Positions 6,695 to 10,822 of a stretch of DNA of 64,000 bases are shown piece after piece. Numbering within the stretch: position 1 is the stretch's first letter; every line of letters starts with the position of its first letter. The stretch comes from an uncultured Gemmatimonadota bacterium (lineage in GTDB: Bacteria > Gemmatimonadota > Gemmatimonadetes > Gemmatimonadales > Gemmatimonadaceae), in assembly GCA_903910555.1 (NCBI GenBank), contig CAIVZZ010000001.1, positions 248,001 to 312,000 of the forward strand, given 5' to 3'. The notes below the pieces were generated by a model. The model had not been told where the DNA came from. It saw only the letters and a program-made list of their open reading frames with translations, and did no database searches. Made by a program: the position numbers and the translations under genes.

Positions 6695-7207
6695 TTACTG
6701 AACGGTGACGGTTCCCTTCATGTTCATCGCGAGGTGCGGCGTGCAGTTGAACGAGTACTTGCCGGCCTTGATGCCCGCGAACGAGATCGTGTACGAATCA
6801 CCAATGTTGAGCAGGAGCGGGCTGGAGAGCTCGCCGATCTTGCCGCCGCCCATGTTCGCGTCGAGCTGCGCCTTCACGGCAGCGTCGGCGAGACCCGGCT
6901 GAGCAACGTCGAACGCAACGTTGTGCGGCGGGGTCGAGACAACGGTGAACTTGATGCCGTCGCCGGCTTTGATCGTGAGATCTGCGGGATCGAACTTATA
7001 GGTATTGCCATCGCCGATCATCTTCACTTCCCACGTCTTGCCCGTGATGGGCATCCCGGTACCCGTCGCCGCTGCGCCCGCTGCCGGGGCCGCTGCTGCC
7101 GCACCAGCTGCCGGCGCGCCCGCCGCAGGCGTCGCGTCCTTGGCACCACCACCGCACGCGCCGAGAACAATGGCGCTCGAGACAAGAGCTACACCGAGGA
7201 ACCGCAT
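6695..7207 (-). CDS. Cupredoxin (plastocyanin/azurin-like) lipoprotein
   Basis: A 170-residue predicted lipoprotein. ATG 7207 is chosen because GGAGG (7222-7218 on the minus strand) lies 10 bases upstream and a lipobox follows (VSSAIVLGACGGG). After the lipidated Cys comes a low-complexity Ala/Pro/Gly linker of about 25 residues, then a cupredoxin fold. Likely type 1 copper ligands are His in PPHNVAFD, Cys and His in FNCTPH, and a Met in the following LAMNMKG. It is probably a membrane-tethered periplasmic electron carrier. A promoter (TTGCAT, 17 bp, TAATTT) with an overlapping Crp/Fnr-like palindrome lies upstream. Confidence 0.85.
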   Translation of the reverse strand: MRFLGVALVSSAIVLGACGGGAKDATPAAGAPAAGAAAAAPAAGAAATGTGMPITGKTWEVKMIGDGNTYKFDPADLTIKAGDGIKFTVVSTPPHNVAFDVAQPGLADAAVKAQLDANMGGGKIGELSSPLLLNIGDSYTISFAGIKAGKYSFNCTPHLAMNMKGTVTVQ

Positions 7208-7277
7208 TACTGAAAGGCCTCCAGAACCGAACACAAATGGATGGTTGACATGCTCAATGCGGAGTGAATCCGAAGTA

Positions 7278-7360: not shown

Positions 7361-7389
7361 TTGACTGGGCCCGCGGCCCCGACTACTCT
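7361..7389 (+). promoter_or_regulatory. Promoter of the histidine operon
   Basis: TTGACT (7361-7366), exactly 17 bp, then TACTCT (7384-7389). Transcription would begin near 7395-7397, only a few bases before the leader-peptide ATG at 7400, so the leader peptide may be translated from a nearly leaderless mRNA. This is the best sigma70-type match in the intergenic region. Confidence 0.7.
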
Positions 7390-7399
7390 TCGCTCCATC

Positions 7400-7486
7400 A
7401 TGGTCACTCAGAACCTCCATCATGTGCATCGCCACCACGGCCCGTCGGGCCGCGGCGAGGTTGCACGTGTCCGGATGACCGCCTAA
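7400..7486 (+). CDS. hisL: his operon leader peptide (attenuator peptide)
   Basis: A 28-codon reading frame, ATG 7400 to TAA 7484-7486. Codons 7-13 read HHVHRHH: five His codons (CAT at 7418, 7421, 7427; CAC at 7433, 7436) in seven. It lies between the strong promoter at 7361-7389 and hisG. The His run ends at 7438, exactly where the first RNA stem of the attenuator begins, so a ribosome waiting for charged His-tRNA would block that stem. No Shine-Dalgarno is visible; the transcript probably starts 3-5 bases upstream. The peptide itself is expected to have no function beyond sensing His-tRNA charging. Confidence 0.88.
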   Translation: MVTQNLHHVHRHHGPSGRGEVARVRMTA

Positions 7487-7544
7487 GAAGCGCGTTCGAC
7501 ACCCCTGCTCCGAGCCCGGCCCGTCCCAACGGACGGGCTTTTTT
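7438..7544 (+). promoter_or_regulatory. Histidine attenuator: competing RNA stems
   Basis: Three pairings compete. Stem 1:2 is CGGCCC (7438-7443) with GGGCCG (7447-7452). Stem 2:3, the anti-terminator, is CGGGCCG (7446-7452) with CGGCCCG (7517-7523). Stem 3:4, the terminator, is GCCCGTCC (7519-7526) with GGACGGGC (7531-7538), then T6. Stem 2:3 uses most of the 5' arm of the terminator. Stalling at the His codons covers segment 1 and favours 2:3, giving read-through into hisG. With ample His-tRNA the ribosome moves on, 1:2 or segment 2 occlusion frees 3, and the terminator forms. The pairings are read directly from the sequence; energies were not computed. Confidence 0.8.
7519..7544 (+). terminator. 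Attenuator terminator upstream of hisG
   Basis: A perfect 8-bp GC-rich stem (GCCCGTCC / GGACGGGC) with loop CAAC and a run of six T ends 44 bases before the hisG ATG. It lies downstream of the His-rich leader peptide, as expected for transcription attenuation. Confidence 0.9.
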
Positions 7545-7587: not shown

Positions 7588-8448
7588 ATGCTGCGCATAG
7601 CACTACCGAACAAAGGCAGGCTCAATCAGGAATGTCGTGATCTGCTCAACGATGCCGGGCTCGAAGTCCGGGCCAGCAACGAGCGCGCACTCACGGCATC
7701 ACTCGGCGGAGAGTTCGAGGCCATCTTCGTCCGCGCCCAGGATATCCCGGAATTTGTCGCCGACGGCGCCGCGGACGCCGGGATCACGGGCTGGGATCTG
7801 GTCGCCGAATCTGAGCGGGCGCTCGAGTCGCGCCTCGATCTCGGATTTGGTCGCTGCCGGCTGGTCGTCGCTGCGCGCGAAGACAGCGACGTCCGATCGC
7901 TGAAGGATCTCCAGGGCACGCCGCGCGTTGCGACGGTCTTCCCAAACCTCACGCGAAGTTTTTTTGCGGTGAGCGGAAAAATGGTGCAGGTCGTTCCGGT
8001 GTCGGGTGCCGTAGAAGTTGCCCCGCATCTCGGAATCGCGGAGCTCATCGTCGATCTCACCTCAACCGGCTCGACGCTCAAGGTAAACGGGCTCCGCGAA
8101 ATCACGACGGTGCTGCAGTCGAGCGCGCGGCTCATCACGGCCGCAAACGCTGCGGACGAATCGCGAGAGCGTTCGCTCACGGAACTAGTCCAAGCCCTCG
8201 CGTCCGTCATCGCCGCTCGCGACAAACGGTACGTCATGGCCAACGTCCCGCGCGCGCAACTCGACGCGGTGAAGAAAATTCTCCCCGGAATATCCGGCCC
8301 CACCATCATCGATGTCATGAACGGCGGCACAATGGTCGCCGTGCACGCGGTCGCCCCTGCAGCCTCGATCTATAAGACGCTCACCGCACTCAAGCAGCTC
8401 GGTGGCGAAGGCATCCTCGTGACACGCATCGAAAGGTTGATGGCATGA
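7588..8448 (+). CDS. hisG: ATP phosphoribosyltransferase, long form
   Basis: Catalyses the first and committed step of histidine synthesis: ATP plus PRPP to phosphoribosyl-ATP. Translation from ATG 7588 gives 286 residues beginning MLRIALPNKGRL, the conserved HisG start; the open frame upstream covers the attenuator and is discarded. DAGITGWDL and the DLTSTGSTL phosphoribosyl-binding loop are visible. The C-terminal about 75 residues form the regulatory domain of the long, hexameric HisG, usually inhibited by histidine, so no HisZ partner is needed. It is the first gene of a nine-gene operon and overlaps hisD as ATGA. Confidence 0.96.
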   Translation: MLRIALPNKGRLNQECRDLLNDAGLEVRASNERALTASLGGEFEAIFVRAQDIPEFVADGAADAGITGWDLVAESERALESRLDLGFGRCRLVVAAREDSDVRSLKDLQGTPRVATVFPNLTRSFFAVSGKMVQVVPVSGAVEVAPHLGIAELIVDLTSTGSTLKVNGLREITTVLQSSARLITAANAADESRERSLTELVQALASVIAARDKRYVMANVPRAQLDAVKKILPGISGPTIIDVMNGGTMVAVHAVAPAASIYKTLTALKQLGGEGILVTRIERLMA

Positions 8449-9758
8449 CCAAAGCGAGACTTTTGCTCAAGCTTGCCGTGCGCGGCGCGCCGCCAAAGCG
8501 CGGCACGATCGCGTGGAATGCACTGTTCGATCGCTCTACAAGCGCCGACAAATCGATTCGCACGCGCACGGCGAAAATCATCGCGCGCGTTCGCCGCGAT
8601 GGTGATCGTGCTCTCCGCGCGCTCGCGCTTGAGTTCGACGGCGCGAAACTCGAATCACTCGAAGTGCCTCGCGTGCTCTGGCGTCGCGCGCTCGAGTCTC
8701 TCGATCCGGAGCTCCGCCGCACTCTCAAGCGCGCCGCTTCGAACATTCGCGCCGCACACAGCGCGTTTCGTCCCGTCGCCGAGTCGTTCACGACCGTCGA
8801 CGGTATCGTGCTCACGCGACGGCCGGATCCGCTCGCACGGGTCGGCGTGTACGCACCCGGCGGACGCGCTGCGTATCCGAGCAGCGTTCTCATGGGTGTC
8901 GTGCCGGCGAAAGTCGCCGGCGTTGCCGAAGTGATCGTCTGTTCGCCACCTGGTTCCAATGGATATCCGTCACCGGTGATTCTCGCTGCGGCAGAAATCG
9001 CCGGCGCGGACCGTGTGTTCGCCGTGGGTGGTGCCGGCGCGATTGCGGCGATGGCGTGGGGAACGCAGAGCATCTCGCGCGTCGATCGGATTGTAGGCCC
9101 GGGTAACGCGTACGTGGCGGAAGCAAAGCTTCAGGCGGCGGGTGTTGTTGCAATCGACGCGCCGGCCGGGCCGAGTGAGCTGCTCGTGATCGCGGACAGT
9201 TCCGCGAACCCGGAAATAGTCGCGCGTGAAATGACCGCGCAGGCAGAGCACGATCCGCTGGCGGCGGTCGTGCTGGTCTCGACATCGCGCAAGCTTGCCG
9301 GTGACGTCGAACGCGTGCTCGCCCGTTTGACGCCGGCCGAACCGCGTGCCGCAATCATCCGCGCGGCGTTCGCGGCCCGCGGCGGCATCGTCACCGTTTC
9401 ATCAATTGACGCGGCCCTGGCATTTGCTGCGGATTATGCTGCCGAGCACGTCCTCGTGTGCTGCCGCAACGGCGTCGCGGTCACGGCCAGAGTGCGCAAT
9501 GCCGGGACGATTTTCCTCGGGGCGGCGGGAAGCGTCGCGTTCGGCGATTATATGACTGGCGCGAACCACGTGTTGCCAACAGGTGGACTCGCGCGCGGAT
9601 ATTCGGGCCTTTCGACAGAAGATTTCTACCGTTGGACGACTACGCAACGCATCTCGCGTTCCGCTGCACGCGCGCTGGCGGCCGATGTTGGATTATTTGC
9701 AGACGCTGAAGGGCTGCCGGGGCACGCCGCCGCGGCAAGACAATGGAGAACGGCATGA
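8445..9758 (+). CDS. hisD: Histidinol dehydrogenase
   Basis: Zinc- and NAD-dependent enzyme for the last two oxidations, histidinol to histidine. The 437-residue length is normal. Conserved stretches include GVYAPGGRAAYPSSVLMG, the NAD-binding region VGPGNAYVAEAK, TAQAEHDP, the catalytic Glu-His in YAAEHVLV, and FGDYMTGANHVLPT. The start ATG overlaps the hisG stop (ATGA at 8445), and its own stop overlaps the chosen hisC start at 9755, so translation is likely coupled. Confidence 0.97.
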   Translation: MTKARLLLKLAVRGAPPKRGTIAWNALFDRSTSADKSIRTRTAKIIARVRRDGDRALRALALEFDGAKLESLEVPRVLWRRALESLDPELRRTLKRAASNIRAAHSAFRPVAESFTTVDGIVLTRRPDPLARVGVYAPGGRAAYPSSVLMGVVPAKVAGVAEVIVCSPPGSNGYPSPVILAAAEIAGADRVFAVGGAGAIAAMAWGTQSISRVDRIVGPGNAYVAEAKLQAAGVVAIDAPAGPSELLVIADSSANPEIVAREMTAQAEHDPLAAVVLVSTSRKLAGDVERVLARLTPAEPRAAIIRAAFAARGGIVTVSSIDAALAFAADYAAEHVLVCCRNGVAVTARVRNAGTIFLGAAGSVAFGDYMTGANHVLPTGGLARGYSGLSTEDFYRWTTTQRISRSAARALAADVGLFADAEGLPGHAAAARQWRTA

Positions 9759-10822
9759 CGCAGCCGAATCGCATCACACCAAGCGAATTGCCGCGCGCAG
9801 ATTTTGCGTCGATCCCGCGTTACTCCGCGGGCGCCGACGCCGAAATCGATTTGAGCGACAACACAAATCAGTGGGGCGCGCCGCCCGCTGCGGCCGCCGT
9901 GTTGCGGCAAGCGCTCGAGATCTCGCGCTACCCGGATATGTACGGCGACTCGCTCAAGCGCACGGTCGCGAAAATGACAGGGCTCGGTCCCGAGCGTGTC
10001 GTTACGGGCAACGGTTCCGACGATGTACTGGATTGTGTGATTCGCGCGTTCGCCGCACCCGGTGACACCGTCGCCCATCCCGATCCGACCTTCGTGATGG
10101 TTCCCGTGTTTTCGCGCATCAACGGCATCACGCCCGTGCCGGTTCCGCTCGCCGCAGATTTTTCGATGGATGCCGACGCGCTGCTCGCGACGAACGCGCG
10201 CATCATCTATCTCTGCTCGCCGAACAACCCCACGGCAACACCGACGAGTGTCGACACGATCCGGCACGTCATCGCCAACGCACGCGGGCTTGTCCTGATC
10301 GACGAGGCGTACGCGGAGTTCACTGGTCTCGAAGGATTTCTCGCGGAGGCACCGGCACTTGAACGCGTGGTAGTGTGCCGCACGCTGTCGAAAGCGTACG
10401 GTCTCGCGGGATTGCGCGTCGGCTACGCGACTGCGTCGGCGAAGATCATCGAGATCATAGAAAAGTCACGAGGGCCGTTCAAGCTCAACATGATGGCCGA
10501 GCGCGCGGCAGTCGAGGCGCTCACGACGGATGCCGAATGGGTCGCCGCGCGCGTTCGCGATGCGGTTGCGAGTCGCGACCGGCTGGCCGGCGCATTGAGT
10601 GCGATCGGCCTCACGCCGCTCCCGTCGGTCGCAAATTTTCTGCTCGTACCCACATCGAAAGCGTTCGCGCTCGCAGCGGCCGTGCGCGAGAAGGGGATCG
10701 CGATCCGTCCGTTTCGCGGACTGACCGGAATCGGCGACGCATTCCGGATTACCGCGGGCCCGTGGCCGGTAATGGAGCGCGTACTTGCCGCGCTTGCCGA
10801 CGCACAGCGCAGCGCCGCGTGA
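9755..10822 (+). CDS. hisC: Histidinol-phosphate aminotransferase
   Basis: A PLP-dependent class I/II aminotransferase of 355 residues that converts imidazole-acetol phosphate to histidinol phosphate. The PLP lysine lies in CRTLSKAYGLAGLRVGY; other fold markers are CSPNNPTATP and LIDEAYAEF. ATG 9755 is preferred over ATG 9743 because it forms the ATGA overlap used throughout this operon and has GGAGA 5-6 bases upstream. The gene is 10 bases short of hisH. Confidence 0.95.
   Translation: MTQPNRITPSELPRADFASIPRYSAGADAEIDLSDNTNQWGAPPAAAAVLRQALEISRYPDMYGDSLKRTVAKMTGLGPERVVTGNGSDDVLDCVIRAFAAPGDTVAHPDPTFVMVPVFSRINGITPVPVPLAADFSMDADALLATNARIIYLCSPNNPTATPTSVDTIRHVIANARGLVLIDEAYAEFTGLEGFLAEAPALERVVVCRTLSKAYGLAGLRVGYATASAKIIEIIEKSRGPFKLNMMAERAAVEALTTDAEWVAARVRDAVASRDRLAGALSAIGLTPLPSVANFLLVPTSKAFALAAAVREKGIAIRPFRGLTGIGDAFRITAGPWPVMERVLAALADAQRSAA

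Follow-up and report, generated by a model that had tools for sequence, protein, structure and literature searches.

What role does a short reading frame crowded with histidine codons play immediately ahead of hisG in an uncultured Gemmatimonadota bacterium? A sequence-only reading had proposed a histidine attenuator at this locus, and we followed it up in the window, by which we mean the whole stretch of 64,000 nt that was analysed (CAIVZZ010000001.1, 248,001-312,000, forward strand) and to which all coordinates refer (Table 1). From the anatomy of the leader and its stems, together with comparison with relatives, we consider it very probable that the his operon is controlled here by ribosome-mediated transcription attenuation, with charged tRNA-His as the signal sensed. 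The organism groups with the Gemmatimonadota: among named genomes, the closest hisG loci belong to Gemmatimonadota MAGs (84-87% identity).

The 28-codon peptide with its HHVHRHH run was found at 7400-7486 as had been claimed, its His codons beginning at 7418, 7421, 7427, 7433 and 7436, and the leader ORF is enriched in codons for the pathway amino acid. Five His codons in seven within a short ORF did not arise once in 20,000 Markov sequences with the same dinucleotide make-up, and the leader is the sole short ORF to have them on either strand of the whole 64-kb window, from which it follows that the His run is not due to chance.

The final His codon ends on the first base of segment 1 (7438), and the alternative stems 1:2, 2:3 and 3:4 and the intrinsic terminator before hisG are present where the sequence-only reading had placed them. 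Folding of the RNA, a check which that reading had suggested, gave energies of -10.3 kcal/mol for the 1:2 stem (6 bp), -13.6 kcal/mol for the 2:3 stem (7 bp, in a proxy hairpin) and -17.4 kcal/mol for the 3:4 stem (9 bp). The 2:3 and 3:4 helices overlap at 7518-7523 and are, therefore, mutually exclusive, and the intrinsic terminator (7518-7544) is separated from hisG (7588), the first structural gene, by 43 nt. The statement that segment 2 pairs equally well with segments 1 and 3 holds approximately (6 versus 7 bp), although 1:2 is strengthened, to -28.8 kcal/mol, by an outer stem in which His codons themselves pair with downstream RNA. This outer stem is an addition to the earlier description, as are the predicted near-leaderless start, the Myxococcota copies and the re-coded aromatic leaders taken up below.

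Table 1. Features of the predicted attenuator and of the his genes in the window, followed by re-coded leaders of relatives, which are given by locus.
Feature	Position or loci	Strand	Details
-35 element TTGACT	7361..7366	+	direct sequence; TTGACN at same spacing in 80/91 leaders
-10 element TACTCT	7384..7389	+	17-nt spacer; ends 10 nt 5' of leader ATG
Leader peptide gene	7400..7486	+	ATG 7400, stop 7484-7486; 28 codons; peptide MVTQNLHHVHRHHGPSGRGEVARVRMTA
Control codons HHVHRHH (5 His in 7)	7418..7438	+	sequence; H-rich in 91/94 relatives
Outer stem 5' arm, made of control codons	7421..7428	+	pairs with 7462-7469; z -3.3; covariation in relatives
Segment 1	7438..7443	+	pairs with 7447-7452
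Segment 2	7446..7452	+	7447-7452 with segment 1, or 7446-7452 with segment 3
Outer stem 3' arm	7462..7469	+	pairs with 7421-7428
Segment 3	7517..7526	+	7517-7523 with segment 2 (antiterminator); 7518-7526 is terminator 5' arm
Segment 4, terminator 3' arm	7531..7539	+	pairs with 7518-7526
T-run of intrinsic terminator	7539..7544	+	six T, the first also in the stem
hisG, ATP phosphoribosyltransferase	7588..8448	+	first his operon gene; TIGR00070 217 bits, PF01634
hisD, histidinol dehydrogenase	8445..9758	+	TIGR00069 462 bits
hisC-like aminotransferase	9743..10822	+	TIGR01141 266 bits, slightly below cut-off 276.6
DAHP synthase leaders, Gemmatimonadota	L246-L275, L301-L330		Tyr/Phe-rich, predicted near-leaderless, same RNA framework
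Prephenate dehydratase leaders	L186, L332, L333, L345, L346, L347		Phe-rich (e.g. FGFFFSF), same framework
Phenylalanine 4-hydroxylase leaders	L131, L133, L161-L164, L166, L176, L348, L350-L353, L360, L364		Tyr-rich
Leaders of chorismate mutase gene and chorismate mutase/prephenate dehydrogenase gene	L349, L356		Tyr-rich

A promoter of the form TTGACN-17/18-TA ends 5-11 nt (mode 7) upstream of the start codon in 80 of the 91 His leaders that we compared, as against 5/1820 shuffles, and an SD-like sequence lies 5' of the leader ORF in just two of the 91; upstream of the window leader there is no Shine-Dalgarno-like sequence. Given the position of the -10 element and the usual distance between a sigma-70 -10 element and the start site, transcription is predicted to start at approximately 7395-7397, which would leave the leader mRNA with some 0-5 nt of 5' untranslated sequence. 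Because the promoter ends so close to the start codon in those 80 leaders, the mRNA from which the leader peptide is translated is probably near-leaderless. The intergenic region that holds the promoter is shared with a divergent gene on the minus strand (6695-7234), whose product is small and lipoprotein-like and resembles, by eye only, plastocyanin-type copper proteins.

How might this arrangement sense histidine? Transcription would begin at the leader ATG or a few bases 5' of it, and a ribosome would bind the near-leaderless transcript directly. Under histidine shortage the ribosome would stall in the His run and thereby disrupt the 1:2 hairpin and the outer stem; segment 2 would then pair with segment 3, segment 4 would be left single-stranded and RNA polymerase would proceed into hisG. 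When histidine is plentiful the ribosome would move on, covering segment 2 first and later letting 1:2 re-form, and segment 3 would pair with segment 4, with transcription stopping at 7539-7544. In masked-ribosome folding calculations, upstream RNA occupied the terminator 5' arm at 0.83 for a ribosome stalled on the first His codons and at 0.02-0.15 for one just past the His run, which supports a switch near that run. With no ribosome the occupancy was 0.77, a value that does not separate the starved from the untranslated state, and thus thermodynamics alone does not predict termination when the leader is untranslated.

Is the element peculiar to this genome? When 94 distinct hisG upstream regions, drawn from genomes near the window and from named genomes, were aligned, as the sequence-only reading had proposed, the His run was found to be kept in 91 of them, from relatives that include Gemmatimonadota, Myxococcaceae, Archangiaceae and 'Eisenbacteria'. 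Of the three regions with no leader call, one (L019) has Ns within a visible His run, another (L049) ends before the start codon, and the third (L026, from G047) has this hisG type with no leader found and is the sole apparent true absence among the 94. A terminator hairpin was called in 88/91 His leaders; in L005 and L006 the automatic call chose the wrong hairpin, the terminator being visible there. A covariance model of the His attenuator element (R1) had matches in 98 of the 249 Gemmatimonadota genomes searched and in 61 of the 144 from Myxococcota, as a rule at one locus per genome, and all 50 of the matches inspected for a downstream hisG and a His run had both. By these comparisons the predicted His attenuator is conserved across the Gemmatimonadota and is also present in myxobacteria.

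A distant HisG type (31-36% identity), found in the same genus, family and order (L148, L149, L146), likewise has a His leader and a terminator, with other stem sequences. Elsewhere, a leader before a distant hisG type (L344, G116:C27:138893-139023; MTNTHPFFGHYYYHRPRGGR) contains His, Phe and Tyr and is possibly of mixed specificity, and on a single contig (L134, G129:C210) a second His leader lies about 9.5 kb from the first and precedes a hisC-like gene, which suggests that the his genes there form two attenuated transcription units. In a HisG tree the Myxococcota and Eiseniibacteriota proteins nest among those of the Gemmatimonadota, suggesting that hisG was transferred together with its attenuator; because the sample was picked by similarity to the window, and is biased in that respect, and because many branches are weak, we take this as a lead and not as an established result.

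The relatives also bear on the pairings themselves. The outer stem is 80% paired in relatives, with changes on both sides in 6/7 pairs, and the 2:3 pairing of close relatives is formed in 87% of cells compared with 30-50% after sliding by 1-3 columns. Among the close His relatives alone, covariation of 2:3 was not significant (60/500 shuffles) because segments 2 and 3 hardly vary there, and wider sets were, therefore, used. Once distant leaders were added, the 2:3 partners of the same leader did better than swapped ones in 2000/2000 permutations, a result for which relatedness is partly responsible. There are also individual leaders in which segments 2, 3 and 4 are altered together, as in L280 (GACAGG/CCTGTC/GACAGG) and L016 (GGCGGG/CCCGCC/GGCGGG). 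The pairings are conserved in relatives with co-varying changes in these three segments, a check that the earlier reading had put forward.

Is the RNA tied to histidine? Secondary matches of R1 proved to be Tyr-rich leaders preceding phenylalanine 4-hydroxylase. At DAHP synthase loci a Tyr/Phe-rich leader (e.g., MNVGAATYFYYYYRTPVTGRGGRG) was present in 27/30, and leaders are coded for Phe before prephenate dehydratase (6/6) and for Tyr before phenylalanine hydroxylase (15/15; Fisher p 2e-5). In this comparison the identity of the leader codons tracks the pathway product, being His before hisG and Phe or Tyr before aromatic genes, and the Tyr-rich leaders upstream of phenylalanine 4-hydroxylase point to a biosynthetic, Tyr-making role for the enzyme here. 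The promoter and start of the aromatic leaders are laid out as in the His leaders. A second covariance model (R2), of aromatic leaders and trained without His leaders, recovers, at 70-84 bits, hydroxylase leaders on which it had not been trained, and detects His leaders as well, the window leader weakly at 17 bits; a search of the window's own genome with R2 found no aromatic leader, so the re-coded versions are shown in relatives only.

Between His and aromatic leaders the stems change in concert: segment 2 column 57 goes from G to C, segment 3 column 149 from C to G and segment 4 column 164 from G to C, such that pair 57/149 turns from G-C to C-G and pair 149/164 from C-G to G-C and both alternative helices are preserved. 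Over His and aromatic leaders together, 2:3 pairs are formed in 91% and 3:4 pairs in 98% of cells, and the covariation score exceeds that of every shuffle. The framework comprises segment 2 ACGGGYC, segment 3 GGCCCGT, segment 4 ACGGGCC and a predicted near-leaderless start; an exact pattern search for it misses the window leader, whose segment 2 is GTCGGGCC. What is the origin of this framework? We regard it as roughly an even call that it is a homologous, re-codable cassette, which would have been re-coded among His, Tyr and Phe in the Gemmatimonadota through its control codons and compensating stem changes and would have spread with hisG to the Myxococcota and Eiseniibacteriota; repeated convergence on the same stems may instead account for the likeness.

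Leaders for other amino acids were also seen. In two Myxococcota (L299 and L300, from G410 and G400) a leader with six consecutive Thr codons and an adjoining TTGACA promoter, VSFVSAITTTTTTATLFGGSGFVRA, precedes thrS and is a probable Thr attenuator, and a leader rich in Cys and Met (L354, G221:C220:3795-3960; MNPSACYCCRMMMALPPGRRSAACAQVA) precedes a RimK-like ATP-grasp gene, for which it is a possible Cys/Met attenuator.

Could the leader instead control hisG via translation or Rho, with intrinsic termination not used? Leader peptides of such a kind exist, as in the mycobacterial Cys leaders that lack terminators (PMC1262725), but the strong GC hairpin, called with its T-run in 88 of the 91 leaders, co-varies, and the terminator ends approximately 20-100 nt upstream of hisG and leaves its start codon uncovered, all of which makes this explanation improbable. 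Less probable still is that the short ORF encodes a functional His-rich peptide (e.g., for metal binding) to which the RNA stems are incidental. Trans-acting leader peptides are known, namely peTrpL (PMC7298713), and the GPTGRG part is most often in frame 0 (58/90), but the RNA motif is retained in other frames with the peptide C-terminus changed, the ACGGG segment being kept in leaders that read HHGPRAAARS (L002), HHGSRAGA (L027) and HHRLGPDGFD (Myxococcaceae). Since the segment is retained where the reading frame differs, these alignments indicate that selection acts on the leader RNA and that the peptide is not the conserved part; also against a functional peptide, Tyr or Phe codons replace the His codons before aromatic genes while the RNA is retained. 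A tRNA-His T-box or metabolite riboswitch, of interest in that his genes are under T-box control in Firmicutes (PMC9413887), can be practically discounted, the Rfam scan having returned no family at threshold anywhere in the window.

How does a ribosome-mediated His attenuator at this locus compare with known systems? Attenuation by amino-acid leaders is already known from Proteobacteria, Actinobacteria and some Firmicutes. The window element resembles hisL of Escherichia coli and Salmonella (Rfam His_leader, RF00514) in its His-rich leader peptide, competing stems, intrinsic terminator and hisG as the first gene, but differs in its stem sequences and predicted near-leaderless start and in that RF00514 (gathering threshold 49 bits) has no match in the window or its genome, although the model does match in E. 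coli. A His-codon leader peptide combined with a terminator and antiterminator has likewise been predicted by comparison for Firmicutes lineages (PMC9413887) and for hisZ/hisS in bacilli (PMC2965389); those were reported as separate local cases, whereas here one RNA family runs through the Gemmatimonadota and reaches the Myxococcota. The leader mRNA start predicted here, at or near the start codon, has precedents in Sinorhizobium meliloti trpL and Corynebacterium glutamicum ilvB (PMC7298713, PMC11857589), which differ in having Trp or branched-chain codons and unrelated RNA and in belonging to other phyla. In C. glutamicum, according to the account of Neshat 2014 given in PMC11802643, the Phe-Tyr-Phe leader aroR controls aroF (DAHP synthase); as far as that account goes, the Gemmatimonadota Tyr/Phe leaders before DAHP synthase are similar, but they have an RNA framework in common with the His attenuator. 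In the openly accessible literature that we searched, we found no attenuator described for Gemmatimonadota and no Myxococcus His leader.

We conclude that the mechanism is very probably classical attenuation, which is known, and that the RNA family is new and absent from Rfam. The known range of amino-acid leader attenuation is extended by these predictions to the Gemmatimonadota and Myxococcota, and the predicted near-leaderless leader peptide is relevant to how translation starts in Gemmatimonadota. What could surprise specialists is the shared, re-coded framework: since it occurs with His, Tyr and Phe codons, one can test directly how attenuator specificity changes and whether attenuators travel with operons.
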